Virus record (IMG/VR): IMGVR_UViG_3300021425_000029
Coordinates: 1 to 64,000 of that record
From: a virus
DNA length: 64,000 bases
Direction: 5' to 3' (one strand)
Shown piece after piece: positions 9,880-50,839 of this stretch. The notes under the pieces are model-generated. The model was not told the DNA's origin. It worked only from the letters and a program-made list of their open reading frames with translations, and searched no databases. A program made the position numbers and the translations under genes. How positions within the stretch are numbered: the first letter of the stretch is position 1; each line of letters starts with the position of its first letter.

Positions 9880-10170
9880 TTAAGACCATTTTTCTGGAGC
9901 AGGGGTATATCGGATGTTTCGTTTGATATCCCATTTCTCGACAACAGGAAGACCACACTCGTCTTCATCAACACAAACATAGGCAACGGTCTTCTTGACC
10001 TCCGCATAACGATATTGTTGACCCAGACCACCTACCCACACCAAGTGAGGGAATCGGGTGAAAGGGCCGTGACCAAAGTCACCATTCTCAGAGTAGTGAA
10101 AAGACATACCGTAGTCTTTCTCAACAAACTCACCTAAAACTGGTTCAACACCTAAAGGGGCATATGCCAT
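9880..10170 (-). CDS. Hypothetical protein
   Basis: A 96-residue protein starting at ATG 10170, which overlaps the stop of the small membrane gene upstream (TAATG) behind GGAGATTAA. It contains a Gly-rich aromatic stretch (HLVWVGGLGQQYRYAEV) and an acidic VCVDEDECG. No family is recognised. It is the last gene of a four-gene overlapping set from the promoter at 10727. Confidence 0.68.
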   Translation of the reverse strand: MAYAPLGVEPVLGEFVEKDYGMSFHYSENGDFGHGPFTRFPHLVWVGGLGQQYRYAEVKKTVAYVCVDEDECGLPVVEKWDIKRNIRYTPAPEKWS

Positions 10171-10328
10171 TATTTAATCTCCATCTGGTCACGCATACCG
10201 AGACCAATAAAACCAAAACCGATTGAAGCGTAGAACAGACACTCAATGATAGACATGGTGTCCTGTTCCAAACCTCCCGCAGAACCAAATACAAAAAACG
10301 CACCAACTAAACCGTAAATCAAATTCAT
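10170..10328 (-). CDS. 52-residue membrane protein
   Basis: A small protein (MNLIYGLVGAFFVFGSAGG...) with two hydrophobic segments (residues 3-18 and 27-45). Its start overlaps the upstream stop (ATGA) and its stop overlaps the next start (TAATG), which strongly supports translation. Likely inserted in the host inner membrane early in infection. No family recognised. Confidence 0.7.
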   Translation of the reverse strand: MNLIYGLVGAFFVFGSAGGLEQDTMSIIECLFYASIGFGFIGLGMRDQMEIK

Positions 10329-10507
10329 TGACCAACTACCTCCGTAGGGTTATAAAACTTAATAGTCTCGTCATCAACCATCTCAACAGGTTTATGGTTG
10401 GTCAACTGCCAGAAGTACTGGGGCAGTAATGAGTAAGACTTCAAGGGGGCGATAAATTCAACACCGTCTTCAAAAGATACATAGGTTAAGTTACTTAATT
10501 GATTCAT
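10325..10507 (-). CDS. 60-residue hypothetical protein
   Basis: A small soluble protein (MNQLSNLTYVSFEDG...) from ATG 10507, with AAGGAGATTAAATA as an excellent ribosome binding site and a one-base overlap with the gene upstream. No motif is recognised. Confidence 0.65.
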   Translation of the reverse strand: MNQLSNLTYVSFEDGVEFIAPLKSYSLLPQYFWQLTNHKPVEMVDDETIKFYNPTEVVGQ

Positions 10508-10695
10508 TATTTAATCTCCTTACGCTGTAAAGCGTGGTCAATCCAACAATCACTGATCAAGTCACGATCCATGCGCCACTTGAACGCATCTTGGATTCGG
10601 TCAAAACGAGCCATCTCGTTATCGTTCACCATATTGCGAACAATGTAAACATACTCTTCGTTGACTCTCTTCTCTCTCATATCACTGTTTCTCAT
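10507..10695 (-). CDS. 62-residue early hypothetical protein
   Basis: Starts at ATG 10695 behind AAAAGAGAGAGAGAT; further upstream the frame runs into the promoter, so the shorter form is chosen. The protein is charged (MREKRVNEEYVYIVRNMV..., DAFKWRMDRDLISD) and probably helical. First gene after the promoter at 10727-10755. Function unknown. Confidence 0.65.
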   Translation of the reverse strand: MRNSDMREKRVNEEYVYIVRNMVNDNEMARFDRIQDAFKWRMDRDLISDCWIDHALQRKEIK

Positions 10696-10726
10696 ATCTC
10701 TCTCTCTTTTCTCATTTTGTATACAC

Positions 10727-10755
10727 ATTATAACCGCCCAGACAGGTTTCGTCAA
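10727..10755 (-). promoter_or_regulatory. Sigma70-type promoter
   Basis: TTGACG (10755-10750), 17 bases, TATAAT (10732-10727). Directly upstream lies the palindrome CTTATTTTcAAAATAAG, almost the same as upstream of the promoter at 7820. Confidence 0.8.
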
Positions 10756-10867
10756 CCCTTATTTTGAAAATAAGTGAAATAATTTAGAATAAAATGGAAT
10801 AAAAGGGAGTTTTTTAGAACTTTTTCGTATATGGAACGAAATTATCTCTACGGTTTTTCACCATTAT

Positions 10868-10900
10868 GGGGAAAAGAAGGGGAGATATTTCTATCTCCCC
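10868..10900 (-). terminator. Rho-independent terminator after pstS transcript
   Basis: Minus-strand hairpin GGGGAGATA-gaaa-TATCTCCCC (9 bp stem) followed by TTCTTTTCC, eight bases after the stop of the outer-membrane-like gene. It ends the Pho-regulated transcript. The roughly 110 bases from here to the promoter at 10755 are AT-rich and hold no gene. Confidence 0.8.
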
Positions 10901-10907
10901 AAATATC

Positions 10908-11231
10908 TTAAAATGAATAACGAATCTCTGTTTCTACGCCATGTTTCCACGCATCTACATTTGTTGATTCAATCTTACCTTTTACAGTGAAACCATTATC
11001 AAACTTAAACTTATAACCAGCTTCTGCTGATGTACCACCATCAGACATAACACCTGCTTCGAGATAAACTTTCTTACCTTTGTAACCTAGTCTCAAATGG
11101 TTAGTACCAGAACCTAGATCAATGTTGTCAAACTCGGTGAATTTGATTTTGTTTTTTGCTTCAACATATGGGCCTGCAAATGTTGATACCGACATAAGTG
11201 ATACTAATACTACTGCGATTAAACTTTTCAT
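10908..11231 (-). CDS. Small secreted beta-barrel-like protein
   Basis: A 107-residue protein with a clear signal peptide (MKSLIAVVLVSLMSVSTFA, cleavage after Ala19). The mature part alternates Gly and aromatic residues (HLRLGYKGKKVYLEAGV, SAEAGYKFKFDNGFTVKG) and ends in Tyr-Ser-Phe, which is the pattern of outer-membrane beta strands and their C-terminal signal. It follows pstS by 9 bases with AGGAGACCCC, so both should be induced by phosphate starvation. It is far shorter than a porin, with at most 6-8 strands. Its signal peptide is similar to that of PstS. Confidence 0.75.
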   Translation of the reverse strand: MKSLIAVVLVSLMSVSTFAGPYVEAKNKIKFTEFDNIDLGSGTNHLRLGYKGKKVYLEAGVMSDGGTSAEAGYKFKFDNGFTVKGKIESTNVDAWKHGVETEIRYSF

Positions 11232-11240
11232 TGGGGTCTC

Positions 11241-12239
11241 CTATAAACCTTTGAATGAATTTCTAACTTCTTTTGGTAATGGAATCATGCCCTTTTCGAC
11301 AAGATAACCATCGTCACCCCATGACTTCTCGGAAGTGAACTCGTTTACATACTCAGCGATACCTGGCACTACACCAACATGAGCCTTCTTAACATAGAAG
11401 AATAGTGGGCGAGATACTGAATATGATTTGTCTGCAATGTTTTCGAATGTTGGTTCAACACCTTCAATCAATGAACCTTGCACAACATCGGCATTCTGGT
11501 CTAAGAATGAAAACCCGAAGATGCCATATGCGTCTTTATTTTTTGTTAACTTTTGTATGATTAGATTGTCGTTTTCGCCTGCTTCGATGTATACACCATC
11601 TTCACGAATTGTATGACATATTGCTTTGTATGCTTTCTTATCAACTTTTTTCATTGCTTTAATTTCTGGAAACTTCTTACAACCACCTTCCATTGCTAAC
11701 TCGACAAATGCATCACGAGTACCAGATGTTGGGGGTGGGCCAAGAACTTCAATTCTTACATTAGGTAAAGAAGAATCAATATCAGACCAATAGGTGTATG
11801 GGTTTTCGATAAGGTTACCATTTGAATCTGGTACTTCTTTCGCAAGAGCAAGAAAGATTTGTTTACGTGTTACATTTAACACTTCACTCTCTTTACTGTT
11901 TGCAAGAACAATACCATCATATCCTACGTTTACTTCTAGTATATCCGTCACTCCATTTGAAGCACATTTTGCGACTTCAGAATCCTTGATAACACGACTT
12001 GCATTTGTAATGTCTGCATATTGTGTACCAACACCACCACAGAATAGTTTGAAACCACCACCTGTTCCAGTGCTTTCGATCTTTGGTGTTTTGATGTTTG
12101 CTTGCTTACCTACTCGTTCTGCAACGACTGTTGCGAAAGGATAAACTGTAGATGAACCTACAATTTCAACGGTTGAACGGGCGAAAGATTGGGTAGAAGC
12201 GAAGAGAGTTACTAGTACTACTACGATTAGACTTTTCAT
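11241..12239 (-). CDS. pstS: Phosphate ABC transporter substrate-binding protein PstS
   Basis: A 332-residue periplasmic phosphate-binding protein with signal peptide (MKSLIVVVLVTLFASTQSFA). Family hallmarks are VEIVGSSTVYPFATVVAE at the N-terminus, ESTGTGGGFKLFC, DITNASRVIKDSE, and the phosphate-binding GPPPTSGTRDAFVEL. Cyanophages and some marine phages carry pstS and raise host phosphate uptake during infection. No permease or ATPase gene is in the window, so it must work with the host PstCAB. The gene sits behind a three-repeat Pho box. Confidence 0.95.
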   Translation of the reverse strand: MKSLIVVVLVTLFASTQSFARSTVEIVGSSTVYPFATVVAERVGKQANIKTPKIESTGTGGGFKLFCGGVGTQYADITNASRVIKDSEVAKCASNGVTDILEVNVGYDGIVLANSKESEVLNVTRKQIFLALAKEVPDSNGNLIENPYTYWSDIDSSLPNVRIEVLGPPPTSGTRDAFVELAMEGGCKKFPEIKAMKKVDKKAYKAICHTIREDGVYIEAGENDNLIIQKLTKNKDAYGIFGFSFLDQNADVVQGSLIEGVEPTFENIADKSYSVSRPLFFYVKKAHVGVVPGIAEYVNEFTSEKSWGDDGYLVEKGMIPLPKEVRNSFKGL

Positions 12240-12288
12240 AAATGGTCTCCTAAACCTAAGTGATTAGTCGTAGGTACTTATAAGTTTA

Positions 12289-12321
12289 GGTGTTACATTT
12301 GTGTTACAGTTGTGTTATAGT
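12289..12321 (-). promoter_or_regulatory. Pho box: three 11-bp direct repeats
   Basis: Reading the minus strand: ACTATAACACA, ACTGTAACACA, AATGTAACACC, three contiguous 11-mers. This matches the PhoB box layout (11-bp direct repeats with CTGTNA(C/T) cores). A -10-like TTATAAGTA follows about 8-10 bases later, and the pstS ATG is 50 bases downstream. Host PhoB is the expected activator. Confidence 0.85.
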
Positions 12322-12333
12322 TTTATGAAGTTT

Positions 12334-14154
12334 TTATGACAGAAAAGTATAGATGTCAATGAGTTCTTCTTTACCCTTGACTTTGATCTGACCTATCGAT
12401 CTCGATTCAATGTTGGTAAGTTGTTCCATTGTGTTACTGGAGTAGATTGTTTTATATTCGAGATAGTCTCCTCGAGCGGCCGTTGCTTCGAGTCTTGCGG
12501 CAAGGTTGACTGCATCTCCGATGACTGAGTAGTCAAAACGAGATTCACTACCCATATTACCAACAATGCAATCACCTGTATTGATACCAGTGCCAACATT
12601 GATGGGGGGTAGACCCTGTTCGCTATATCGTTGTCTGAGTTCATTGGTTTTCTCTTCTATCTCTATCGCAGACTTCACTGCCATCTCTGCGTGGTTCTCA
12701 CATGGGAGGGGAGCATTCCAGAATGCCATTATACAATCACCCATGTACTTGTCGATTGTGCCACCGTTATTTAGTATAATGTTAGTCATTTCATTGAGAT
12801 AATTGTTAATTAATGTGACCAAACCTTCTGCATCGTCTCTGTTCTTGTAGTGTTCCGATATGGGGGTGAAACCACAGATGTCCATAAACAAGAAGGTCAT
12901 CTCTTTTCTCTCACCACCCAACTTCATTAGACTCGGATCGTTGGCCAACATATCAACCATGTCGGGTGATAGGTATGTGCCGAACTGTCCCTTAATCATT
13001 TGTTTCGCTTTGAACTGTGTGTAGAACTGAACAAATGAACCGTGTGCAAATACTAGGGTCAAAGTGATGATGGGGAATGTCGGGTCTAGTTGTACATAGT
13101 GTGTACCAAACAATTCATAAACCGTGTACAGAATACCACCGATTATGATAAAATATGATACACCTGATACGAGTATATTAGCCCTCCCTAACAGAGCTAG
13201 GAGTATAACACACAACACAAGAGTTGTCAAGACCTCATAGAAAATAAATTCTGATGGTCTCTTGAGAACTACTCCATCGATCATTGTCTTGATTAGGTTT
13301 GCTTGAATGTCATGGGGATACATTGCACCCATCGGTGTAGATACCACATTAGAACCTTCAAAGGTTGCGCCTACAATAATAATCGAACCTTCGGGTATCT
13401 GGTCTAGTTCAGTGAATGAATATCTCTTGAACTCATTCCAGTATGCGATTGTAACTGTACCCGTTACATCTGTAGTGATTGGTTTGAACTTGGGTATACG
13501 AACAAACTCAATACCATAGTCATCTGTGGATATCTGGTAGGACGAATCACCAGCCGCAACTCTGAGTACATCTAACGCAAATGCGGGATAGAGTCGATTG
13601 TCAAAGTTCTCTAGTAGTGGTTGTCTACGAATGATACCATCCACATCTTGGGCAGATGAGATTGTACCGTAACCAAACGAGTTGTCATGGATGATTGGTT
13701 GTGCAAACAACATACCTTCCAGTTCTGGTCGGAAGTCCTCGGCATCCCTGTCACCGAATGTCGCAGTACCGATACGAGGTGGACGATAATCTGTGTTGGT
13801 TCGATTGGATGGTGCGATTGCGACTACTGCTTGTTTCCACGATAGGATATCTGCAAAGTATTCGTCTCCTCCGAATCTGTCTGGTTCTGAAAACAAGATA
13901 TTCAGACCAATCAGACTATTCTCAATCTTGTCGATCTCGTCTGCCATTACTCTTCGGGGAATGGGATACTGTCCGAATTTGTCCAGAGTTTTCTCATCGA
14001 TATCCACCAGTACAATCTGTTCGGATACCGCAGTCTCTTGACTTCTCTGAAGAGAATCAAAAAATGAGAGTCTTGCACTCTCTAATAGAAAGGGGTCAAG
14101 TAATCGTATACCTACCATCAACCCCAGTGTGATAAGTACTTGCCATGTCTTCAT
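12334..14154 (-). CDS. CHASE2-domain class III adenylate/guanylate cyclase
   Basis: A 606-residue membrane cyclase. Residues 1-23 form a first membrane helix, 40-300 a CHASE2 sensor domain facing the periplasm (VLVDIDEKTLDKFGQYP and GSIIIVGATFEGSNVV are typical), 303-375 three membrane helices, and 415-600 the class III catalytic domain. Metal ligands D425 (FLFMDICGFT) and D473, the adenine-selecting K469 (TIDKYMGD) and D547, and the transition-state N550/R554 (VNLAAR) are all present, so it should be active and probably makes cAMP. Its ATG overlaps the stop of the FecR-domain gene (ATGA). FecR and CHASE2-cyclase neighbours are common in proteobacterial chromosomes; in a phage this is remarkable. 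Confidence 0.93.
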   Translation of the reverse strand: MKTWQVLITLGLMVGIRLLDPFLLESARLSFFDSLQRSQETAVSEQIVLVDIDEKTLDKFGQYPIPRRVMADEIDKIENSLIGLNILFSEPDRFGGDEYFADILSWKQAVVAIAPSNRTNTDYRPPRIGTATFGDRDAEDFRPELEGMLFAQPIIHDNSFGYGTISSAQDVDGIIRRQPLLENFDNRLYPAFALDVLRVAAGDSSYQISTDDYGIEFVRIPKFKPITTDVTGTVTIAYWNEFKRYSFTELDQIPEGSIIIVGATFEGSNVVSTPMGAMYPHDIQANLIKTMIDGVVLKRPSEFIFYEVLTTLVLCVILLALLGRANILVSGVSYFIIIGGILYTVYELFGTHYVQLDPTFPIITLTLVFAHGSFVQFYTQFKAKQMIKGQFGTYLSPDMVDMLANDPSLMKLGGERKEMTFLFMDICGFTPISEHYKNRDDAEGLVTLINNYLNEMTNIILNNGGTIDKYMGDCIMAFWNAPLPCENHAEMAVKSAIEIEEKTNELRQRYSEQGLPPINVGTGINTGDCIVGNMGSESRFDYSVIGDAVNLAARLEATAARGDYLEYKTIYSSNTMEQLTNIESRSIGQIKVKGKEELIDIYTFLS

Positions 14155-15269
14155 TGTACTATACTTATAGTAGTACTTACACCATTGATTACAATGGGGT
14201 CTAACTCTTTTCCGTCTTGGTCTATGTTTATTTCTGTTTCTGCGTTCTTGTCAACCGATATCTCTACGATATCGCTTACATTTCTACTCACCAATACATT
14301 CTCACCGTCAACAATAGTTGCAACCTGAGTGACTGTATCGAATCCTTCTTCTGTGCCTTGTAGGGATAACTCACCAGTAGTTTGTTGTTCTTTTAGAACA
14401 TCCTCACCCAGTGAGTCAAAGTTATCCAACATATCTTCGAGTAGTTCAACATCCAGTAAATTGATATCCAATTCATTGAACTCCAGATAGTCCTTCTCCA
14501 GTTCTTCTTCTGTTAACAAGTCCTCATCCAGAAAGTCTATGTCAAGGGGATTGATATTCTTAGCGGCACTCACGCCTGTCATGAACTCTTCTGCGGTCTG
14601 TCTTTTCTTAGGGGGATTAATAATCATGATGTTGTTCAACATATCCAGAGTCAAGTCTAGAATAGATGGTTTACTTGGGGGTGTCTCCATAACTGTTGTT
14701 GTGGTAGACTGGAATGGTTTGTTAAGTACAACTTCACCTGTCATTGTCGAAACAATAATTTCACCAGATGATACTCCATTCACATTAGGAAGAAGCACCA
14801 CTAGTGTCTTTCCGAACTCATCTACCGTAACTGTGAAGTCCGTTCCACGGATACCGATAGATGCAGTCGGGGTCTTGAGCCTGATATTCTCTTTATCAAC
14901 CTTACCCAGTTGACCAGATATAAATCTGGCAGTACCTTGGGCAAAGGTCATTGCAAGATCAGACTTACTTGGATCATCATCGAACACCACATTGTCAATC
15001 ACAATGCGTGTGTGTTCGGTCATTCTTAGTTTACTATCATCAACAAAACGAACCTGAAGGCGACCCTCACCAGTGCGAAGGTCATCCTTCGAGATTACAT
15101 CTTGTCCTTGATTTGGTTCGATCTCGTCCGAATCACGGACAATCTGTCTCCAACCTACGGCTTTATCTACTGCACCTACTTCACTACTAGTCGCAACCGC
15201 TGGCACTACCAGAGTCAGACTGAGTGATACAAATAGTAGCGTCTGTTGTACTCGTTCCCGAACCTTCAT
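14151..15269 (-). CDS. FecR-domain periplasmic protein
   Basis: A 372-residue exported protein with signal peptide (residues 1-27, ending VVPAVA). Residues 55-190 form a FecR domain: DDLRTGEGRLQVRFVDDSK, RIVIDNVVFDD, and TPTASIGIRGTDFTV are the family landmarks. The C-terminal 180 residues are acidic and leucine-rich (LDIDFLDEDLLTEEELEKD) and end in a small beta segment. It starts at ATG 15269 behind TGGAGATAGATT. Its first 83 bases overlap the end of the curlin-like gene in another frame. FecR proteins relay surface or periplasmic signals; with the adjacent CHASE2 cyclase it probably forms a sensory pair. Confidence 0.9.
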   Translation of the reverse strand: MKVRERVQQTLLFVSLSLTLVVPAVATSSEVGAVDKAVGWRQIVRDSDEIEPNQGQDVISKDDLRTGEGRLQVRFVDDSKLRMTEHTRIVIDNVVFDDDPSKSDLAMTFAQGTARFISGQLGKVDKENIRLKTPTASIGIRGTDFTVTVDEFGKTLVVLLPNVNGVSSGEIIVSTMTGEVVLNKPFQSTTTTVMETPPSKPSILDLTLDMLNNIMIINPPKKRQTAEEFMTGVSAAKNINPLDIDFLDEDLLTEEELEKDYLEFNELDINLLDVELLEDMLDNFDSLGEDVLKEQQTTGELSLQGTEEGFDTVTQVATIVDGENVLVSRNVSDIVEISVDKNAETEINIDQDGKELDPIVINGVSTTISIVQ

Positions 15270-15906
15270 AATCTATCTCCAGTGAATCTGTCTGTAGAGT
15301 TGATTCTTGATGTACCTCTATGTCCCAATAACTACCAACACCAGTCAACACGAATTCGTGTCCAGCATAACCAGAACCGTTGTATAGTAAACTATTGTTG
15401 TCACCCGCAACATCCAGATTGAATGTAAGGTCTTCAGCATCAATGTTAACATCCGCAGCGTTAAAGTCACCTTCTAATACAAAATCAAAGTCCACTCCAG
15501 TAGCGGTATCCACCGAACCGATATCAAAGTCTAGGTCGTTATTACCACCAGTGATATCAATTAAATAGTCACCTCCATCTGCACCATGAGTATTGTCCTT
15601 GTCAACATCAAACAACAAATCGTTCGTAGAACCACTGATATCAATGTCCACTGTTGAAGTACCAATAATCTTACCAATCATATTATTACTACCTCCACTT
15701 ATGTTGACATTGAAATCCATGTTGTCGCCATCAAGCAACATTTTTGTTGTATCCGAAGTTGACCCACCGACTTTGTTTCCAGAGCCGTCTTGAACAATTT
15801 CTATAACACCACCATCACCAACTTGGTCAATGTAGATTTCATTATCTGCATATGCAGCACCAATCAAGAACATCATAACAAAAGTTAATTTTTGTTTTGC
15901 GTTCAT
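15187..15906 (-). CDS. Curlin-like repeat protein
   Basis: A 239-residue exported protein with signal peptide (MNAKQKLTFVMMFLIGAAYA). It starts with EIYIDQVGDGG and IEIVQDGSGNKVG, very close to curlin repeats (I-x-Q-x-G-x-x-N). The rest has degenerate repeats of about 20-25 residues with G-x-x-N turns (GGSNNMIG, GSTNDLLFD, GGNNDLDFD, GDNNSLLYN) between D/I/F-rich strands, suggesting a beta-solenoid. Two cysteines sit near the C-terminus (CITQSDSGSASGC). It is placed between csgG and the FecR gene and may be the substrate of the CsgG pore. Typical CsgA glutamines are mostly lost, so amyloid formation is uncertain. Confidence 0.8.
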   Translation of the reverse strand: MNAKQKLTFVMMFLIGAAYADNEIYIDQVGDGGVIEIVQDGSGNKVGGSTSDTTKMLLDGDNMDFNVNISGGSNNMIGKIIGTSTVDIDISGSTNDLLFDVDKDNTHGADGGDYLIDITGGNNDLDFDIGSVDTATGVDFDFVLEGDFNAADVNIDAEDLTFNLDVAGDNNSLLYNGSGYAGHEFVLTGVGSYWDIEVHQESTLQTDSLEIDYEGSGTSTTDATICITQSDSGSASGCD

Positions 15907-15910
15907 TTTT

Positions 15911-16723
15911 TTACTTTTCTCCGTTTATAACCCAGAACCCTTTTTGGTTTCCTCTCAAAATGAGTTCCAGTACACCCGCCTCTATCGCACGTTGTGTCGC
16001 AATAGACACGGATTCGTTTTGGGTAACTCCCGATTCGATCTCAACCAGTTCTGTACCCTGCTCTATAAATTTAAACACATCTCCACCGAAAGCTGTGGAG
16101 AGTATGGTCTTACTGGATATGACATCCAACAATACCTCACCTGTTGCAACTGACACCAATCGTATATTAATTGTCACGGTGTCTATACTAAATTCACGAG
16201 AAGTACCAATGCCAAGGTATCTGGCACCCGCACCACCCGTGTCAACGGAAGTATCGTATCCTACTATACCTCCTGCAATTATCATACCAGCAAAATACAG
16301 TGCCGGCAGTTTCTGAGAGTCATTTCCCTCATAAGATTGACGAGTTTGACGAATCAACTGTCGTTCTCTCGTCAGATGGTCAAGAATTTGACGGTCTACC
16401 ACACGAAAGAATTTTCCGTCACCCGCACGAGTCAGTGCCCTTATCAGATATACATCTGGAGCCTGTGTAACCGCAGAACTAAAACTCGTTCCACCACTAC
16501 TGTTCTGTCTCTTCTGTCCCGTCTGGTCTGTAAACTTGTAAACCGCAACTGTAGGTTTCTTCTTGGGAACTCCTACATTAATCAACTCTTCTTGTAAAAG
16601 AGTGTATTGTACTTTCGGTTCTTCTCTTTCAGGTATCTCAAATTGACCTCCGCCAATCGAAGCACAACTAGATACCAAAATCACCAAGGGGAATAGTAAT
16701 AGTCGTGACATTTCCATACTCAT
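15911..16723 (-). CDS. csgG: CsgG-like curli secretion channel lipoprotein
   Basis: A 270-residue outer-membrane lipoprotein with lipobox LVSSC (Cys20). It matches CsgG along its length: VAVYKFTDQTGQ, the region around FFRVVDRQILDHLTRERQLIRQ, then YFAGMIIAGGIVGYD, REFSIDTVTINIRLVSVATGEVL, SKTILS and a C-terminal helix that includes AGVLELI. CsgG forms a nonameric pore that exports curli subunits. Three in-frame ATGs occur at 16723, 16717 and 16711; the third has a better-spaced purine stretch. It overlaps the csgF-like gene by 56 bases or less. Confidence 0.92.
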   Translation of the reverse strand: MSMEMSRLLLFPLVILVSSCASIGGGQFEIPEREEPKVQYTLLQEELINVGVPKKKPTVAVYKFTDQTGQKRQNSSGGTSFSSAVTQAPDVYLIRALTRAGDGKFFRVVDRQILDHLTRERQLIRQTRQSYEGNDSQKLPALYFAGMIIAGGIVGYDTSVDTGGAGARYLGIGTSREFSIDTVTINIRLVSVATGEVLLDVISSKTILSTAFGGDVFKFIEQGTELVEIESGVTQNESVSIATQRAIEAGVLELILRGNQKGFWVINGEK

Positions 16724-17114
16724 CTGTTACTGTTAATACCACTTCATCACCATCGGTGACATATGATATACCCGTTCCTTCTATGTTGAACTCGCCCGAT
16801 TCACTAGGGTTTTCTCCAAACATACTATCTACAATCTGTCTTGACAGTGTAGAATAAATTCTACTTTCTACATTACGAATAAATTTTGCGAGAGTTGTAT
16901 TCTCGGCATCCCTCTCCAGTTGTTTCTGCAATTCTTCCAGTTCTTTCTTTATCGTTTCTTTTCTACTATGTTCTTGATTCTCAATAGTCAGATAATGGGA
17001 TGATTGATTGATACCACTAAAGGAAGGTGACTTGAATTCATGTTCAATGGGTGCAGCTTGCAATCCTGTTGCCACAAAAAACAACAACCCGAAACTAAGT
17101 CTCATTTTCTTCAT
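16668..17114 (-). CDS. csgF: CsgF-like curli assembly protein
   Basis: A 148-residue secreted protein with signal peptide (MKKMRLSFGLLFFVATGLQA). The mature N-terminus has HEFKSPSFSGIN, which matches the CsgF segment (F-x-N-P-x-F-G-G-N) that inserts into the CsgG pore. The C-terminal half reads FIRNVESRIYSTLSRQIVD and YGNVTTITIPLGDF, again as in CsgF. A charged helix (residues 50-72) lies between. RBS GGAGAAAACAGG precedes ATG 17114. With CsgG it should form the CsgG:CsgF complex in the host outer membrane. CsgE, CsgC and CsgD are not present. Confidence 0.85.
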   Translation of the reverse strand: MKKMRLSFGLLFFVATGLQAAPIEHEFKSPSFSGINQSSHYLTIENQEHSRKETIKKELEELQKQLERDAENTTLAKFIRNVESRIYSTLSRQIVDSMFGENPSESGEFNIEGTGISYVTDGDEVVLTVTDEYGNVTTITIPLGDFGI

Positions 17115-17352
17115 CCTGTTTTCTCCTCATCTCGATTGCGGTGTCTAGTTTCTGTTGCAATCGGATAATATCATTATCAAGCATACGAATACGGTCAATC
17201 AACGCAATCAAAGTGACAGTGGCTTCGCTAAGTTGTTTTTCTACTTCTTCGGTGATGGTTTTCCACACAAAGTAAATCATGTAGAGCATACCTACAGCAG
17301 CGACTATTGGGAATCCAAAGTCCTTGATTTGCGTTACTATGTCAACTTCCAC
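17095..17352 (-). CDS. Holin-like membrane protein (UviB/BhlA type), copy 2
   Basis: An 85-residue protein: one membrane helix (FGFPIVAAVGMLYMIYFVW) followed by a coiled-coil (VEKQLSEATVTLIALIDRIRML to the end). The layout and the GFPI motif are those of the BhlA/UviB holin-like proteins. It starts with GTG at 17352, overlapping the previous stop (TAGTG). The adjacent gene is a paralogue. A holin or pore-scaffold role in lysis or in the CsgG system is inferred. Confidence 0.72.
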   Translation of the reverse strand: MEVDIVTQIKDFGFPIVAAVGMLYMIYFVWKTITEEVEKQLSEATVTLIALIDRIRMLDNDIIRLQQKLDTAIEMRRKQDEENET

Positions 17353-17630
17353 TAGTCTCGCCTCGCATCTTCTTTACCGTCCGCTCTACTGATACGGTTG
17401 AGGTCGGGTCTTATTCCGAGAACAACACACATAGTAGTATCCATACGAATCATATCATGATTCATAGTTTTTACACGATTATCAAGGCTCCCCACAATCC
17501 CATGTAATGACTTCACCTGTCCGATTACGCCATCCATTATATACTTGAGTGTCAGAAACATAAAGAAACCACCTATTAAGGCGGATGCGATAGGAAACCC
17601 CAATTCTTTTATTAGGGTAAATATATCCAT
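17352..17630 (-). CDS. Holin-like membrane protein (UviB/BhlA type), copy 1
   Basis: A 92-residue protein with the same plan as its downstream neighbour: MDIFTLIKELGFPIASALIGGFF begins a single long membrane helix, followed by a coiled-coil and a charged tail. Shared E/DFGFPI-A motif and length indicate a tandem duplication. The ATG is only five bases after TATAAATA and no Shine-Dalgarno is visible, so translation may be leaderless. First gene of the curli-like operon. Confidence 0.75.
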   Translation of the reverse strand: MDIFTLIKELGFPIASALIGGFFMFLTLKYIMDGVIGQVKSLHGIVGSLDNRVKTMNHDMIRMDTTMCVVLGIRPDLNRISRADGKEDARRD

Positions 17631-17635
17631 GCTGG

Positions 17636-17643
17636 TATTTATA
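17636..17643 (-). promoter_or_regulatory. Late promoter abutting the ATG
   Basis: Exact TATAAATA, then CCAGC, then ATG at 17630. With late-promoter geometry of T4 (start about 6 bases after the octamer) the first transcribed base would be the A of the ATG. It would drive the curli-like/cyclase operon late in infection. Confidence 0.75.
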
Positions 17644-17803
17644 CGAATAAACTTTTAAAAGGACAAAAAAAATCCCCGACTTTGCGGGGATTCTTCTTTC
17701 GATTGTATTTGGTTTTATCGGGTACGACTTTCTGTCGGTAGGGACTGTCCTTGTCGAACAAGACCCGACCATGACGAGACTTTATTCTTTTTTCCTTTTT
17801 CAT
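17639..17803 (-). CDS. 54-residue basic protein
   Basis: A small basic protein (MKKEKRIKSRHGRVLFDKD...) from ATG 17803 behind AGAGGTG, itself after a late promoter at 17823-17830. Its last 15 codons include a strong terminator hairpin, so the 3' end of the message is read through a terminator structure; either the coding region truly contains it, or the ORF end is not functional. The motif RHGRVLFDKDSPYRQKVVPD looks conserved rather than random. Function unknown. Confidence 0.6.
   Translation of the reverse strand: MKKEKRIKSRHGRVLFDKDSPYRQKVVPDKTKYNRKKNPRKVGDFFCPFKSLFV
17665..17691 (-). terminator. Rho-independent terminator inside the 54-residue ORF
   Basis: Minus-strand hairpin ATCCCCG-caaagt-CGGGGAT followed by seven T. 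It separates the small gene at 17.8 kb from the curli-like operon, which restarts from its own late promoter. Confidence 0.85.
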
Positions 17804-17822
17804 GACACACCTCTAAAACTAT

Positions 17823-17830
17823 TATTTATA
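17823..17830 (-). promoter_or_regulatory. T4-type late promoter TATAAATA
   Basis: Exact octamer 19 bases before ATG 17803, leaving room for a leader with the AGAGGTG ribosome binding site. Confidence 0.75.
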
Positions 17831-18023
17831 CTTCTTTACGAAGTTTTGAAATAAGAGTTTCTACATAATCAAGGTAGGTTTTCATTTCATCTTCACTTTC
17901 AAAGTAAGGGGTGTTAGCGGTCATTGCATTGCAAGAACTGACTCCTTCATCAGCATGATACTGAAGATCACCCAGATAGTTTTCTAGAAGTTTTGTCGCA
18001 GTTTTCATTAGACTTTCTTTCAT
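17826..18023 (-). CDS. 65-residue hypothetical protein
   Basis: Starts at ATG 18023, overlapping the stop of the upstream gene (ATGA). A helical acidic protein (MKESLMKTATKLLENYLGD...) ending in LISKLRKEV. Its stop codon region overlaps the late promoter of the next transcription unit. No family recognised. Confidence 0.65.
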   Translation of the reverse strand: MKESLMKTATKLLENYLGDLQYHADEGVSSCNAMTANTPYFESEDEMKTYLDYVETLISKLRKEV

Positions 18024-18211
18024 AAGTATGTTCCCATATCTCTTTGAATTTCTTCCCAATGATTAAGTGCAGTTTCCATTGCCATAGGGATTAAGGTTTT
18101 ATCACGAAAGAAGGCTCTCTCCACTTCCGCAATCACTACATCACGAGATTCGTTGTAGTTACTCTCAGCGATCTCTTGACACTCAAAAACAAATTGTCCC
18201 ATTCTACTCAT
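18020..18211 (-). CDS. 63-residue hypothetical protein
   Basis: A helical protein (MSRMGQFVFECQEIAESNYN...) whose ATG overlaps the stop of the 31-residue gene upstream (ATGA). An internal ATG at 18202 is an alternative start. No motif is recognised. Confidence 0.62.
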   Translation of the reverse strand: MSRMGQFVFECQEIAESNYNESRDVVIAEVERAFFRDKTLIPMAMETALNHWEEIQRDMGTYL

Positions 18212-18303
18212 ACAATCACCAAATCCAAAACAAAGGTTGTAAAAATTAAAATGTACAGTCCAAGGATTTCTCCTCTCAATGTTGCGTATTGTTCTTTATT
18301 CAT
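18208..18303 (-). CDS. 31-residue membrane peptide
   Basis: MNKEQYATLRGEILG followed by a hydrophobic helix (LYILIFTTFVLDLVIV). It starts 3 bases after the upstream stop behind GTGGAG and overlaps the next gene by ATGA. The arrangement supports translation even though it is tiny. Function unknown. Confidence 0.6.
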   Translation of the reverse strand: MNKEQYATLRGEILGLYILIFTTFVLDLVIV

Positions 18304-18306
18304 AAT

Positions 18307-18657
18307 TTACTCCACAGATTTTATTTCATTACGGATGATTGCGTTCACTATTTCTTCCGCAATCAGTTTGTGGCCACCAATGTGCCACGGATAAAGGGTA
18401 TAAGGGATAGACTCAGTACACCAGTTGTAAATGGTGACCACTTCAGTCTTGGTATCTTGGGGGTCATCCGACAGTGGGTCTTGATAGGTGACCTTAGCAG
18501 ACCACTCACAGTTGACTTTCTCATCACGACCCATATCGACATAGGTCGGTTCACCCAGAATAGACACTAACTTATCATAGGTAGTGTTGATAGTGCCTTG
18601 ACGGCAGGTCAGGTTCACATCAACATCAGTCACATATTCAATAATATTCATAATCAT
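18307..18657 (-). CDS. Hypothetical early protein
   Basis: A 116-residue protein; ATG 18657 or ATG 18651 may be used, the second at better distance from GAGGA. It contains KLVSILGEPTYVDMG, VNCEW and a VVTIYNWCTES strand, a pattern I have seen in hypothetical phage proteins of early regions. First gene after the promoter at 18678-18706. Function unknown. Confidence 0.7.
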   Translation of the reverse strand: MIMNIIEYVTDVDVNLTCRQGTINTTYDKLVSILGEPTYVDMGRDEKVNCEWSAKVTYQDPLSDDPQDTKTEVVTIYNWCTESIPYTLYPWHIGGHKLIAEEIVNAIIRNEIKSVE

Positions 18658-18677
18658 TCCTCATTCTCAATACAAGT

Positions 18678-18706
18678 ATTATACAGGGTTGAACAAGGTT
18701 TGTCAA
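18678..18706 (-). promoter_or_regulatory. Early promoter with shared leader
   Basis: TTGACA (18706-18701), 17 bases, TATAAT (18683-18678), then ACTTGTATTGAGAATGAG as at four other sites. The GAATGAGGA of the leader serves as ribosome binding site. Confidence 0.9.
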
Positions 18707-18714
18707 GGATTATT

Positions 18715-18912
18715 TTAAGTATTATCTCCGTCACGATATACGACATCGGACTTGTTGAATATCTTAGGTTTTCCACCACGCATCCACCCACCTTTCTCCC
18801 AAGGTAGCGGCAGAGTCTTGCCCTCGTACTTCTCCTGTTCCATGTGTATACTCACATAAGTGATTAAGACTGCAACAAACAAAATTATAAAACCAAGTAA
18901 GTACTCTAACAT
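18715..18912 (-). CDS. 65-residue membrane protein
   Basis: Starts at ATG 18912 behind GAGAGGTGATT. An N-terminal membrane helix (LLGFIILFVAVLITYVSI) is followed by a charged tail with WEKGGWMRGGKPKIF. Tightly coupled to the DUF3310-like gene upstream. Function unknown. Confidence 0.65.
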   Translation of the reverse strand: MLEYLLGFIILFVAVLITYVSIHMEQEKYEGKTLPLPWEKGGWMRGGKPKIFNKSDVVYRDGDNT

Positions 18913-18914
18913 AA

Positions 18915-19190
18915 TCACCTCTCGTAGTGGTCGTGAACATATAGTTGAATGATTGCATAGTGCAATACTTTTAGAATATCTTTACGATTGTAACCATCTT
19001 TGTTACCATATCGTTGGGCATACTTCATGATGTTTCCGATACAGAAACCATCACCATGGCCACCATCGATAATAAACTCAGTCGCCTGAAACTTATTCTT
19101 CGAATAGTGTTGTCCATATGTCCCATCAATATATTCAGACAATTCTTTGATTGCCTTGTCTTCGTAATACTTGTACTCAATCTTACTCAT
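18915..19190 (-). CDS. DUF3310-like protein
   Basis: A 91-residue protein from ATG 19190, overlapping the stop of the hydrolase gene (TAATG) behind AGGTGGAAC. The central FCIGNIMKYAQRYGNKDGYN followed by KDILKVLHYAIIQLYVHD matches the DUF3310 (SaV-like) family found in many phages, in which a nucleotide-metabolism or regulatory role has been guessed but not shown. Confidence 0.72.
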   Translation of the reverse strand: MSKIEYKYYEDKAIKELSEYIDGTYGQHYSKNKFQATEFIIDGGHGDGFCIGNIMKYAQRYGNKDGYNRKDILKVLHYAIIQLYVHDHYER

Positions 19191-19735
19191 TAGTTCCACC
19201 TATAAAAAATATGTTCACCGATACTACCAACCATATCCATACCACGGTCATGAATCCAATCAGGACTCACATAGGATGCATGATAGTGTGTAGCACCTTC
19301 TGTTATACCACGATACTCCCCATAAGTCAAGAAGTTTTGTGCAATTAATTTAGACCTTTCCCAACTGTCGCCCTCATTTGGTTCGTCAGACTTTCCATCA
19401 CAATACCAACTAAATTGACACTTGTGTCTTACAGGAACAACACGATCTCTTTCAAGATGCCATTCACTTAGTACCGCTTGTTGTACAACACCACAAATAG
19501 AGGATGGATACCTAGTATCGTATACACGATTCATGGTAACATCCGCAACCGCAACTTGTCCCGCAAGGGATTCGTTTCGTGATTCATGGTAGATGTTTAA
19601 GGCGAGACATCGAATATCCGATGGTGAGTGCCAAAAGGACTCTTCGGTCTGATCAATGTTGTAATTGGTTGCACTCGATACTGTACTCAGTATTCCGAGT
19701 GTAGTTATTCCTACTATTAGTCTTTTCATAATCAT
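19190..19735 (-). CDS. SleB/CwlJ-type cell wall hydrolase with signal peptide
   Basis: A 181-residue exported enzyme. After a signal peptide (MKRLIVGITTLGILSTVSSA) the domain has IRCLALNIYHESRNESLAGQ, then VADVTMNRV, typical of the Hydrolase_2 (SleB) family, whose conserved Glu in YHE(S/A)R is catalytic. It probably cleaves peptidoglycan and is the best endolysin candidate in the window; export by signal peptide would let it work without a classical holin. Its ATG lies exactly where transcription from the promoter at 19742-19770 should start. Confidence 0.88.
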   Translation of the reverse strand: MIMKRLIVGITTLGILSTVSSATNYNIDQTEESFWHSPSDIRCLALNIYHESRNESLAGQVAVADVTMNRVYDTRYPSSICGVVQQAVLSEWHLERDRVVPVRHKCQFSWYCDGKSDEPNEGDSWERSKLIAQNFLTYGEYRGITEGATHYHASYVSPDWIHDRGMDMVGSIGEHIFYRWN

Positions 19736-19741
19736 GTATCC

Positions 19742-19770
19742 ATTATACCCACTGGGGTAAAAAAAGTCAA
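19742..19770 (-). promoter_or_regulatory. Sigma70-type promoter, predicted leaderless start
   Basis: TTGACT (19770-19765), 17 bases, TATAAT (19747-19742), then six bases to ATG 19735. The predicted +1 is the A of the ATG. Confidence 0.82.
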
Positions 19771-20537
19771 GCGGTTTCTTTGAATATAATATGCAAATTA
19801 CCGTCTAAGGGACTATCGTTTGGGTCTTCCATTACTACCACTTCTTCAATGATATCTTCCATTGATCTCAATTTATCCAACTGTCTGTTTAAAGATCGTG
19901 ATTTGTCCGATGCATACAATCTTTGTAAATTTAGACTTGCGAACCCTTTGCCACCACTTCCCAACAAACCATAGAAATCCTCCAATACCCTTTCTATGTC
20001 CGAATCAAAATGTAACGCACATTGGCTCATAATGTTTTTAAACTTGCCCCTATTTCTTTCATAAAAACTTAGTTGATTTTTTAAAGGGTGTTCTGAGACA
20101 ACTGTAGGAACATCACTACTACCATCTTGAAAGTATGTCAGGGACGAGAAAGGATCGTGGCCAATTACACTAGTAATGTCCACTTCATACTCGTTGACTG
20201 CATGATCAAACTGTAACGGATCAACCCCGTGTACATCGTAATAGTTTTTCCAATAATTTATACCACAACCCATATCAACTATCTGTTCTTCTTTATTCAA
20301 ATAGTTTTCTATGAAATAAAATCCCATCAGTGATGTGAATTTACTAACTATAAGTTTTCTTGGTAGGGTAAAAGTGTTCCACTCTTCTGACCATGTGAAG
20401 TCAACCCGATCAAGTATATAATCATATTCTCTTGTTAATTGACTCCACAATTCTGTTTCAACAAAACCTTTCTTCCAACTCGTAAACCTTTCCGACTTCA
20501 CAAAGTCTTCCGATGTCTTATAATAATCAAGTTTCAT
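19767..20537 (-). CDS. SAM-dependent methyltransferase-like protein
   Basis: A 256-residue protein with a Rossmann methyltransferase motif I, QIVDMGCGINYWKNYY, near residue 86, followed by VHGVDPLQFDHAVNEYEVD as motif II. The N-terminal SEEWNTFTLPRKLIVSKFTSL precedes it. Similar proteins occur in marine myophages. The substrate (DNA, glycan or small molecule) is unknown. Co-translated with the oxygenase-like gene upstream (one-base overlap), suggesting joint action on a nucleotide or sugar. Confidence 0.72.
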   Translation of the reverse strand: MKLDYYKTSEDFVKSERFTSWKKGFVETELWSQLTREYDYILDRVDFTWSEEWNTFTLPRKLIVSKFTSLMGFYFIENYLNKEEQIVDMGCGINYWKNYYDVHGVDPLQFDHAVNEYEVDITSVIGHDPFSSLTYFQDGSSDVPTVVSEHPLKNQLSFYERNRGKFKNIMSQCALHFDSDIERVLEDFYGLLGSGGKGFASLNLQRLYASDKSRSLNRQLDKLRSMEDIIEEVVVMEDPNDSPLDGNLHIIFKETA

Positions 20538-21202
20538 TATGGGGTTTCTAGGTCTTCAACAAAATCTTGGATAGCATCATATGCTTCATTCACATATAGA
20601 TTACCATATGGGAACTTGAATGCGAGTGTGAAACGAGGACAGTTTGTCCACGCAGCGTGCCAACAATGATGTTCGGGTTCTTCTATGCGACCAAACCTGT
20701 ACCATCGTGCCTGCCATCCCTTAACATCTTTCTCTGTGATGATTTCATCTTTCTCTTTATCATAATAAGAAAAGTAACCATCACCCTCTTCACTCCATGT
20801 AAGAATGATTTGATACCCGTGTGCATTCCAGTTAGTATGCCATCCTACAAATCCATTAGGTGGATAGTAGGATGTGAGAGAGTTTGACCTTGCACCAAAC
20901 AACATAGGAAGTTCGGTCTTAGTCCACCTCATCAATGGTTGGAATATATCGGGTCTGTGTTTAACGCCTTGTGCTACTTGGAAACCATAACCCGTTTCGG
21001 GATACCCTACATGATCTTTGCCCTTAGCCATAATCTCGTGTAGATGTTCTTCTTGACAGAATCTCTCCCACTCTTCAACAGGAATGTCTCGTTGTAAATT
21101 ATCAGATAACTCTTCACATAGTTCACGATGTTCAAGAAACATATTGACGGTCTTATCAAGAGTCGCCAACAGTTCCTTGTTTCTGATTACTATCTCAGTC
21201 AT
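20537..21202 (-). CDS. 2OG-Fe(II) oxygenase-like protein
   Basis: A 221-residue protein. YYPPNGFVGWHTNWNAHGYQ and, 60 residues later, HCWHAAWTNCPRFTLAFKF give the double-stranded beta-helix layout of 2-oxoglutarate/Fe(II) dioxygenases (His ... His ... Arg). The first motif is H-x-N rather than H-x-D, so iron binding could be altered. Relatives are frequent in cyanophages. Neighbours are ThyX upstream and a methyltransferase-like gene downstream. Confidence 0.7.
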   Translation of the reverse strand: MTEIVIRNKELLATLDKTVNMFLEHRELCEELSDNLQRDIPVEEWERFCQEEHLHEIMAKGKDHVGYPETGYGFQVAQGVKHRPDIFQPLMRWTKTELPMLFGARSNSLTSYYPPNGFVGWHTNWNAHGYQIILTWSEEGDGYFSYYDKEKDEIITEKDVKGWQARWYRFGRIEEPEHHCWHAAWTNCPRFTLAFKFPYGNLYVNEAYDAIQDFVEDLETP

Positions 21203-21851
21203 TCTCTAGTGCCGCAACCACTTGTGGAAAGTGTTGTTTGATAATATCCCAACACTGATCTGCAACAATCATGTGTTCCTTCTGTGTACCATTACCCCGT
21301 CTCAAATCACAGTAGTGAATCCAACTGCGTAGTGACCCTGCCATATACAATGTGGATTCGGTCATACCCTCTGGCAACAATGCTCGTGCCTGTTCCTTAG
21401 CAATACCTTTCTCCAGTGCGGCCTTGTAAGACCTTTCTGCATCGTTCTTGATCTTTGCTTGTTCCATAGACCACCACTCTTTGAGTACACGATCATCAGT
21501 AGAGACCGAGTTCTGTCGGTTCTTCTCATCCTGTAGTCGGCACTCACGAGTCTCAAAGTGAGTCTGTTCGGCATACCGTTGGGAGAACTCTTGGAATGCA
21601 AACGACCTATGACGAATGATCTGTCTCGCAATATCACGAGTAGTGACGATCTCCATAGTCATATGAACCATCTCGAAAGGCGACCAGTGATTCTCCTTGA
21701 TCAGATACCCCAAGAGTTTAGATGCAGTCTTGGTGTTGTTCTGATTGGTGGGGTTACTCACTCTAGCAGTATACGCAACTAGTTCTGCCGCTGTGTTACA
21801 ATCTGTGGTTGCACTTGGTTGACTCAGTGCAACTAGACTTACTTTACTCAT
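21195..21851 (-). CDS. thyX: Flavin-dependent thymidylate synthase ThyX
   Basis: A 218-residue enzyme that makes dTMP from dUMP using methylene-tetrahydrofolate and FAD/NADPH. The ThyX signature RHRX7S is present (RHRSFAFQEFS, residues 80-90). ATG 21851 is preferred over ATG 21854 because AAGGAG lies seven bases upstream. It overlaps the MazG-like gene by 8 bases. Together they supply and clean the dNTP pool for phage replication. Confidence 0.95.
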   Translation of the reverse strand: MSKVSLVALSQPSATTDCNTAAELVAYTARVSNPTNQNNTKTASKLLGYLIKENHWSPFEMVHMTMEIVTTRDIARQIIRHRSFAFQEFSQRYAEQTHFETRECRLQDEKNRQNSVSTDDRVLKEWWSMEQAKIKNDAERSYKAALEKGIAKEQARALLPEGMTESTLYMAGSLRSWIHYCDLRRGNGTQKEHMIVADQCWDIIKQHFPQVVAALEND

Positions 21852-22143
21852 CATCAGACTCCTTAACAAATATTCCGTCTACCATTCGTCCCTTCCTATC
21901 TTTGATATCTGCATATGCAACCTCAAGACAGTGTTCCATTGGTAGACCATTTCTTTTTGCGATATTGATAAGAACCACCATGATATCACCAATATCATCG
22001 GCAATGTCCCTACCCTTACAAACATTGTCGGACAACTCACCCACCTCTTGGATAAGTTTACACACTTGGTCTTTGTCTGTCGCACCATCGATCAGATTAC
22101 GATCACAGTGCCACTGTTCAACCAATTTAATCAAATCATCCAT
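21844..22143 (-). CDS. mazG: MazG-like nucleotide pyrophosphohydrolase
   Basis: A 99-residue protein with the MazG EExxE...D pattern: LIQEVGELSDNVCKG and DDIGDIMVVLINIAKRNG. The family hydrolyses NTPs to NMPs, and phage forms may act on dNTPs to feed synthesis. Starts at ATG 22143, which overlaps the stop of the membrane protein gene upstream. Compact length is typical of phage MazG. Confidence 0.9.
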   Translation of the reverse strand: MDDLIKLVEQWHCDRNLIDGATDKDQVCKLIQEVGELSDNVCKGRDIADDIGDIMVVLINIAKRNGLPMEHCLEVAYADIKDRKGRMVDGIFVKESDDE

Positions 22144-48528: not shown

Positions 48529-49650
48529 ATGAAACTAACACCAGAAGATGCTCGATATGCAGCGAGTGTATTTAACGATTACTTCGGAAAGATTCAAGAT
48601 ATCGCAGAATACAATAGGGGAATCAAGTTAGAACGCATTGCAGAAATGCCGTTCACCTTGCCCGGCATGGGCCCTGAAGAAGACTTCTTCACGGACTTCG
48701 ATATGCACCCGTCCGAAATGAACTTTGCGGTTGATTCTATGCCACTTGATGCATTTCATCAGTACCTAGAGATAACTTCATCCGCACCAGTTGAGAAGTC
48801 AATTCCAGGCAAGCAGTTAAATAAAATTGTGCGTGAAACCAACACTGGTAAAATCGTAGGTATGATTCGATTCGGTTCTCCTACTATTAATAGTAGACCA
48901 CGCAATCAACTCCTCGGTAAACCACTTGATACAACGAATCCAGAAGTCATGAAACGATTTAATGATTCTGTGATAATGGGTTTTGCTATTGTGGCTGCCC
49001 AACCATTCGGGTTCAACTACCTCGGTGGTAAGTTACTGGCAGCAATCTGTTGTTCTCATGAGATGCGTGAAGAACTCAACAAGAAGTATGATGCAAACAT
49101 CTGTATGTTCGAGACAACCAGTTTATATGGTTCTACCAAAGCACTGTCTCAGTATGATGGTATGAAACCTATACTTCGTTTTAGTGGTTTGACAGTATCT
49201 AACTTTTTGCCACTAATCAACGATGATATTTTTAGAAACCTCAACACATGGTTCGAGGATAAGATTGGCGAACCACTCGTGCCTGTGGATGCCTCATCAC
49301 GCAAACTAAAAACACAAACCAAGATGGTTGGTATCATCAAATCGTCTCTCAAGGGTGAGAAGGGATATGATGAGTTCTGTCAAACCCTAGACCATGCATC
49401 AGGTCTTACGCAACAAAAACGCAGTTTCTATTCTCATTTTGGGTACGAGAATGTAGTCCCATATCTGAACATGGAAACCGACACATTAGTCAAGAAAGAA
49501 AACTATGATCGTTTCTATCTTGATAACCAAATCGATTGGTGGAAGCGTCAAGCAACCAAACGATATAACAAGTTGAAAGAACAAAACGGAATCCGTACAG
49601 TTCTGGAGACTTGGAATACCAATGCTGACGAAATCGATATTATAAGATAA
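48529..49650 (+). CDS. DUF4338-like protein, plus-strand island
   Basis: A 373-residue protein. The centre has RETNTGKIVGMIRFGSPTI, then NDSVIMGFAIVAAQPFGFNY, GGKLLAAICCSHEMREEL and YDANICMFETTSLYG, in the block order of DUF4338/DruA-like proteins (a second, shorter member is at 32.5-33.1 kb). The C-terminal KKENYDRFYLDNQIDWWKRQ is a basic helix. Translated behind a strong ribosome binding site from its own promoter. Followed by a ParB-like gene. Function unknown; a DNA-related activity is suspected. Confidence 0.65.
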   Translation: MKLTPEDARYAASVFNDYFGKIQDIAEYNRGIKLERIAEMPFTLPGMGPEEDFFTDFDMHPSEMNFAVDSMPLDAFHQYLEITSSAPVEKSIPGKQLNKIVRETNTGKIVGMIRFGSPTINSRPRNQLLGKPLDTTNPEVMKRFNDSVIMGFAIVAAQPFGFNYLGGKLLAAICCSHEMREELNKKYDANICMFETTSLYGSTKALSQYDGMKPILRFSGLTVSNFLPLINDDIFRNLNTWFEDKIGEPLVPVDASSRKLKTQTKMVGIIKSSLKGEKGYDEFCQTLDHASGLTQQKRSFYSHFGYENVVPYLNMETDTLVKKENYDRFYLDNQIDWWKRQATKRYNKLKEQNGIRTVLETWNTNADEIDIIR

Positions 49651-50767: not shown

Positions 50768-50839
50768 GCGGAGTTAGTATAATGATTACATTAGGTGTCC
50801 AACCTAAAGATGGAGGTTCAAGTCCTCTGCTCCGCTCCA
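50768..50839 (+). tRNA. tRNA-Gly (anticodon TCC) with G33
   Basis: A 72-nt cloverleaf with encoded CCA. Acceptor GCGGAGT/GCTCCGC, D stem GTA/TAC, anticodon stem TTAGG/CCTAA with loop TGTCCAA, T stem GGAGG/CCTCT with loop TTCAAGT, discriminator T. C2-G71, T73, C35 and C36 are glycine identity elements. Position 33, normally U in all tRNAs, is G here. Followed by its own terminator. Confidence 0.88.

Follow-up and report, generated by a model that had tools for sequence, protein, structure and literature searches.

We analyzed a 64,000-nucleotide window (positions 1 to 64,000 of IMG/VR virus record IMGVR_UViG_3300021425_000029, a 67-kb viral contig), in which seven minus-strand open reading frames (ORFs) at 12334-17630 adjoin by overlap or by gaps of at most 4 bases. 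The sequence suggests that these genes form a late envelope unit in which curli-type export is joined to a sensor made of a FecR-domain protein and a CHASE2 adenylate cyclase, a reading that we consider to have about an even chance of being correct. The module is one already described from ocean phages, and the window is a further carrier of it. New here are the late promoter box, the recognition that the two small transmembrane (TM) proteins at the head of the operon are not kinases, the invariant residues, an operon in Hyphomonas, and the scarcity of domains binding cyclic nucleoside monophosphates (cNMPs) in SAR11. The features of the locus are listed below.

17665..17698, minus strand: intrinsic terminator upstream of the module, 14-pair stem with a T8 tail
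17636..17643, minus strand: late promoter box TATAAATA, T4-type, 5 nt ahead of the TM1 ATG
17352..17630, minus strand: TM1, 92 aa, N-terminal hydrophobic segment and probable coiled coil, phrog_18771
17095..17352, minus strand: TM2, 85 aa, TM1 paralogue, phrog_18771
16668..17114, minus strand: CsgF, 148 aa, signal peptide and conserved N-terminal pore-plug segment (F27, P30, F32, G34, L42)
15911..16723, minus strand: CsgG outer-membrane secretion pore, 270 aa, lipobox VSSC with invariant C20
15187..15906, minus strand: 239-aa protein with curlin-like repeats, a signal peptide, and an all-beta model (pLDDT 81.6)
14151..15269, minus strand: exported FecR-domain protein of 372 aa with the FecR/PupR signalling-domain fold, an acidic linker, and a C-terminus rich in beta structure
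12334..14154, minus strand: 606-aa class III adenylate cyclase, with CHASE2 and then membrane helices ahead of the catalytic domain (D425, K469, D473, S543, N550, R554)

A first-pass annotation of this DNA had read seven packed genes with these identities, the two TM proteins being called holin-like, and both the placement and strand of the ORFs and the Pfam matches agree with it. Matches above the curated cutoffs were obtained for CHASE2 (1.6e-39), Guanylate_cyc (2.4e-19), FecR (6.2e-12), CsgG (4.2e-47), and CsgF (1.1e-16). The source is a marine T4-like phage, with a major head protein, portal, tail sheath, and terminase at 51-61 kb, and the nearest relatives of its head protein are those of Phage C48C1, Melnitz, and HTVC008M. 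No RNA families were found within 10000-22000.

That these genes make up a late unit, likewise claimed at first pass, is supported by the position of the box directly 5' of the first gene, by the strong terminator just upstream of it, and by the enrichment of the box at the operon head. The box by itself is common in the window, with 10 found versus 12 expected by chance, so it is the placement of the box, not its presence, that carries the weight. Of 82 distinct loci, 55 had it ahead of the first gene, compared with 12 of 527 other cluster genes. A second set of loci was fetched with the TM proteins; it overlaps the cyclase-fetched set in some contigs, and the two are not fully independent. 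There the box preceded the first TM gene in 16 of 44 co-linear and 11 of 29 inverted loci, and csgF carried a box in 5 of the 12 inverted loci where it heads its own unit but in 0 of 40 where it does not. The late box appears to track the operon head through rearrangement of the operon. Given the 5-nt spacing from box to ATG, the module transcript is expected to have little or no leader, and the terminator is predicted to separate the module from the preceding genes.

TM1 and TM2 are paralogous, each with a single hydrophobic segment at the N terminus and a likely coiled coil. A match to a holin family was weak and was obtained for TM2 only (phrog_4898, E 0.003), and one member of the TM family matched YvrJ at 0.025. 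In the TM-fetched set of 80 loci, TM1/TM2 have a csg, fecR, or cyclase gene as neighbor in 75, inverted and convergent-cyclase layouts included, and by this measure of neighborhood the pair is dedicated to the module. The published description labels the gene or genes ahead of csgF histidine kinase (HK) and notes that they are short (PMC9599517). Neither HisKA nor HATPase domains were found by Pfam in TM1, TM2, or 11 family members, and a histidine kinase identity was rejected for these proteins of less than 120 aa with one hydrophobic segment and no kinase domain. From its position and reported shortness, the published HK is probably the TM1/TM2 pair, and we take the missing kinase domain as a mislabel in that description, not as a ground for excluding the window from the module.

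The phage CsgG can be aligned with Escherichia coli CsgG along its length (family profile E 1e-71). In CsgF, residues F27, P30, F32, and L42 are invariant in 84 of 84 sequences, and the P, F, and G of the plug motif are common to phage and E. coli CsgF. The solved CsgG-CsgF complexes (6l7a and 6si7) hold the N-terminal part of CsgF inside the pore. Since the motif is kept and this part of CsgF sits within the solved pores, we do not favor the suggestion that phage CsgF possibly no longer binds CsgG (PMC9004378). The curlin-like protein contains seven GxxN motifs, which occur at approximately 10 times background across its family. The top PDB matches of the family profile were CsgA (8enq, E 0.0017) and a curlin-repeat protein (8c50, E 0.021), and Curlin_rpt scored above the Pfam cutoff in several relatives, so that the family looks weakly but consistently curlin-like. 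The alignments behind the structure models contain no rows from named phage records. Compared with the curli type VIII secretion system (T8SS; 6l7a, 3x2r, 6si7), the phage version keeps a full-length CsgG, the lipobox, and the CsgF plug motif. It differs in an altered CsgG constriction loop, in degenerate curlin repeats, in the extra FecR, cyclase, and TM pair, and in the lack of csgE, csgC, and csgD inside the operon, no genome-wide search for CsgE, CsgC, or CsgD having been made.

The FecR protein consists of a signal peptide and then the FecR domain only, and its model resembles the PupR signalling domain (6ovk, E 2e-4) and a putative anti-sigma factor from Parabacteroides. It shares both the domain and this model match with FecI-FecR-FecA signalling (FecR, PupR), but it has a signal peptide in place of the cytosolic anti-sigma domain and TM segment, and the module contains no sigma factor, FecI, FecA, or TonB receptor. 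The FecR C-terminus (14154-14280, minus strand) bears short curlin-repeat-like IxIxQ strands that are conserved in phage relatives and could dock onto the curlin protein. Homology between the FecR and curlin-like proteins was rejected, the profile comparison being not significant.

The cyclase retains D425 and D473 (metal), K469 (base binding), and R554 in 92 of 92 aligned sequences, and N550 in 91 of 92. As K469 and D473 were part of one cyclase search pattern, the count was repeated on 24 loci that had not been fetched by the cyclase; D425, K469, D473, and R554 were present in all 24 and N550 in 23. The first-pass claim of a membrane cyclase with all catalytic residues thus holds, the protein having a CHASE2 domain and intact class III residues that are near-invariant in relatives. 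The Melnitz cyclase (15658-17709 in the Melnitz locus) has N550S at the transition-state Asn and an Asp at base-binding position 543, unlike other members. A Pycsar-type cyclase was rejected, because the PADLOC PycC matches were restricted to the generic cyclase domain and no effector was seen in the module.

The module is present in the isolates HTVC008M and Melnitz, and parts or all of it have been reported before. Zaragoza-Solas et al. (2020; PMC7029224) described csgF-csgG in pelagimyophages, and Buchholz et al. (PMC9004378) modeled the Melnitz pore and proposed a pinholin-like role for CsgG. The whole module, including FecR and adenylate cyclase, was described from Pelagibacter podo- and myophages by Wittmers et al. 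(2022; PMC9599517), and the first-pass statement that no description included FecR and a CHASE2 cyclase was therefore mistaken. Among cyclase-fetched IMG/VR loci, the order TM1>TM2>CsgF>CsgG>curlin>FecR>curlin>cyclase was found in 32, and 16 lacked the second curlin gene. The pelagiphage T8SS module has the same order as the window, namely HK-named small gene(s), csgF, csgG, curlin, fecR, (curlin), and cyclase, and the window differs in having no second curlin gene and an upstream pair without a kinase domain. Cyclase loci lacking csgG had at most approximately 2 kb upstream of the cyclase, which is too short to show csgG. Conservation of gene order, which the first-pass annotation had named as the test of its proposal, was found in dozens of contigs and the two isolates, and this identical order also led us to reject an assembly chimera. 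The cyclase is encoded in at least 599 contig stretches, and the module reaches as far as a contig of 349 kb whose T4-like head protein is only distantly related (37% identity). Such wide spread in T4-like phages implies that the module must pay.

Scanning GTDB genomes for CsgG revealed a csgF-csgG-curlin-fecR-CHASE2 cyclase operon in Hyphomonas sp. TMED17. The operon is flanked by metabolic genes on a 705-kb contig, the G+C of its two flanks is similar, and it is the only case among 105 genomes of its family. Because it is chromosomal, the five genes stand together in a cell too. The TMED17 CsgG falls on the phage side of the tree on a long branch, and its cyclase falls beside bacterial cyclases. 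FecR and cyclase had been stated not to occur in bacterial T8SS operons (PMC9599517, the only paper found on bacterial FecR-curli-cyclase operons); the predicted TMED17 operon, from one metagenome-assembled genome (MAG), contradicts this. In curli-free alphaproteobacterial loci, fecR adjoined a CHASE2 cyclase in 6 of 20 cases versus 0 of 62 bacterial csg loci (approximately 1e-4 in a Fisher-type count by hand). A pairing of FecR and CHASE2 cyclase is also reported from Campylobacterota (PMC9239204). The Campylobacterota clusters likewise have a CHASE2 cyclase adjoining an exported FecR-domain protein, together with a phosphodiesterase and a tetratricopeptide repeat (TPR) protein, whereas the phage unit has neither of these and is joined to a curli pore instead. 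These curli-free and Campylobacterota loci indicate that the sensor pair exists apart from curli. MAG contigs in GTDB assigned to Pelagibacter, Flavobacteriaceae, Rhodobacteraceae, and others carry the phage-type module. The majority of the remaining "bacterial" loci that have the whole module are probably misbinned phage contigs in MAGs, which would create a false appearance of curli and cyclase genes in those taxa.

Taken as a late envelope unit, the module would work as follows. One late promoter would drive TM1-TM2-csgF-csgG-curlin-fecR-cyclase alongside virion genes. CsgG is predicted to be a lipoprotein of the outer-membrane-pore family and CsgF to retain its plug segment for that pore, the curlin-like and FecR proteins are predicted to bear export signals, and the class III active site appears intact behind a periplasmic CHASE2 domain, all of which the sequences support. 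We infer that, late in infection, CsgG-CsgF would export the curlin-like protein(s) or display them on the surface of the infected cell, that the periplasmic FecR protein would sense the state of export or of the fiber and then set the CHASE2 cyclase, and that TM1/TM2 may be inner-membrane partners of the pore or of the cyclase. The likeliest gain would be that dying cells or their debris acquire a different surface, which sticks to neighboring hosts or blocks competitor phages, with the cyclase presumably acting as the read-out arm. The target of the cyclic nucleotide in SAR11 hosts would probably not be a receptor of the cAMP receptor protein (CRP) type. The late promoter, the dedicated TM pair, the bacterial chromosomal version, and the near-absence of cyclic AMP (cAMP) receptors in SAR11 together narrow the possible functions.

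Several observations weigh against this reading. The curlin-like protein of the window is below the Pfam threshold and gave no direct match, and its model had no fold match at E <=0.001, the best ones being weak and several of them beta-helix proteins. Any CsgE would lie outside the operon. An exact match to the late box is missing in approximately one-third of the loci, including HTVC008M, and in over half of those in the second set. The links from FecR to cyclase and from pore to FecR come from gene neighborhood, Melnitz-infected cultures showed no clumping (PMC9004378), and no experimental work on any module member was found in the literature. Finally, of 118 Pelagibacteraceae genomes only 5 encode a cNMP-binding domain, and none was found among 21 phage records, some being fragmentary. 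In the same 118 genomes, a class III cyclase scored above the cutoff in two, both times on csgF-bearing contigs. As cNMP-binding domains are nearly absent from both SAR11 and the phages, a classical cAMP-CRP circuit appears unlikely if the host is SAR11; at a G+C of 0.41, the host of the window may not be SAR11. The first-pass suggestion of surface sensing coupled to a cAMP signal consequently stands in part: the FecR/CHASE2-cyclase pair is an established bacterial association, but in SAR11 a classical receptor is unlikely to be the route by which the cell is reprogrammed. A late cyclic-nucleotide message in receptor-poor hosts might instead be meant for an unrecognised receptor or for neighbors at lysis, with the pore and TM1/TM2 as a sensing or release port, an idea that we advance with considerable doubt.

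A role in lysis or egress, the other first-pass reading, would make TM1/TM2 small holins or pinholins and CsgG/CsgF the means of permeabilizing the outer membrane for a Sec-exported cell-wall hydrolase to finish the cell, with the cyclase or FecR timing lysis. The late promoter fits such a role, as do the small single-TM layout of TM1/TM2 with its weak holin match (E 0.003), their dedication to the module (75 of 80 loci), and a SleB-type hydrolase with a signal peptide approximately 1.5 kb from the module. That hydrolase, however, lies outside the unit and behind the terminator, was detected in only 40 first-set loci, and was rarely beside the module in the second set. Moreover, no known lysis system uses curlin-like, FecR, or cyclase genes. 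The retained CsgF plug segment is an argument for gated secretion and against an open hole, and CsgG forms a channel too narrow to let virions through (PMC7029224). We consider lysis unlikely, if not negligibly so.

Superinfection exclusion, in which the module would coat or alter the infected-cell surface so that competing phages are unable to adsorb, is somewhat harder to credit. All module parts are envelope parts, and it has been argued that curli can limit phage access (PMC9599517), but expression from a late promoter is late for exclusion. An uptake pore, through which CsgG would import nutrients or cofactors for the phage (PMC7029224, PMC9599517), with FecR pointing to iron, is very improbable. 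The CsgE gate is indeed not in the operon and a FecR domain is present, yet the FecR protein is an exported domain only, the module lacks an anti-sigma part as well as FecI and FecA, and late expression and the conserved curlin and CsgF plug better fit export.

Neighboring genes include the SleB-type cell-wall hydrolase (19190-19735, minus strand), a probable endolysin with a signal peptide that forms a separate unit upstream of the module. A PstS-like gene (11241-12239, minus strand) lies directly downstream of the cyclase. Ahead of it, at 12292-12320, are three 7-base half-sites with 11-base spacing (CTATAAC-acaa-CTGTAAC-acaa-ATGTAAC), whose resemblance to a proteobacterial PHO box suggests control by the host PhoB. 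After the PstS gene is a gene for a small cyanophage-type outer-membrane beta-barrel protein (Phage_OMP; 10908-11231, minus strand). A DruA-like (DUF4338) protein is encoded at 48529-49650 on the plus strand (PADLOC DruA E 1e-7, phrog_19197), near a tRNA-Gly at 50768.

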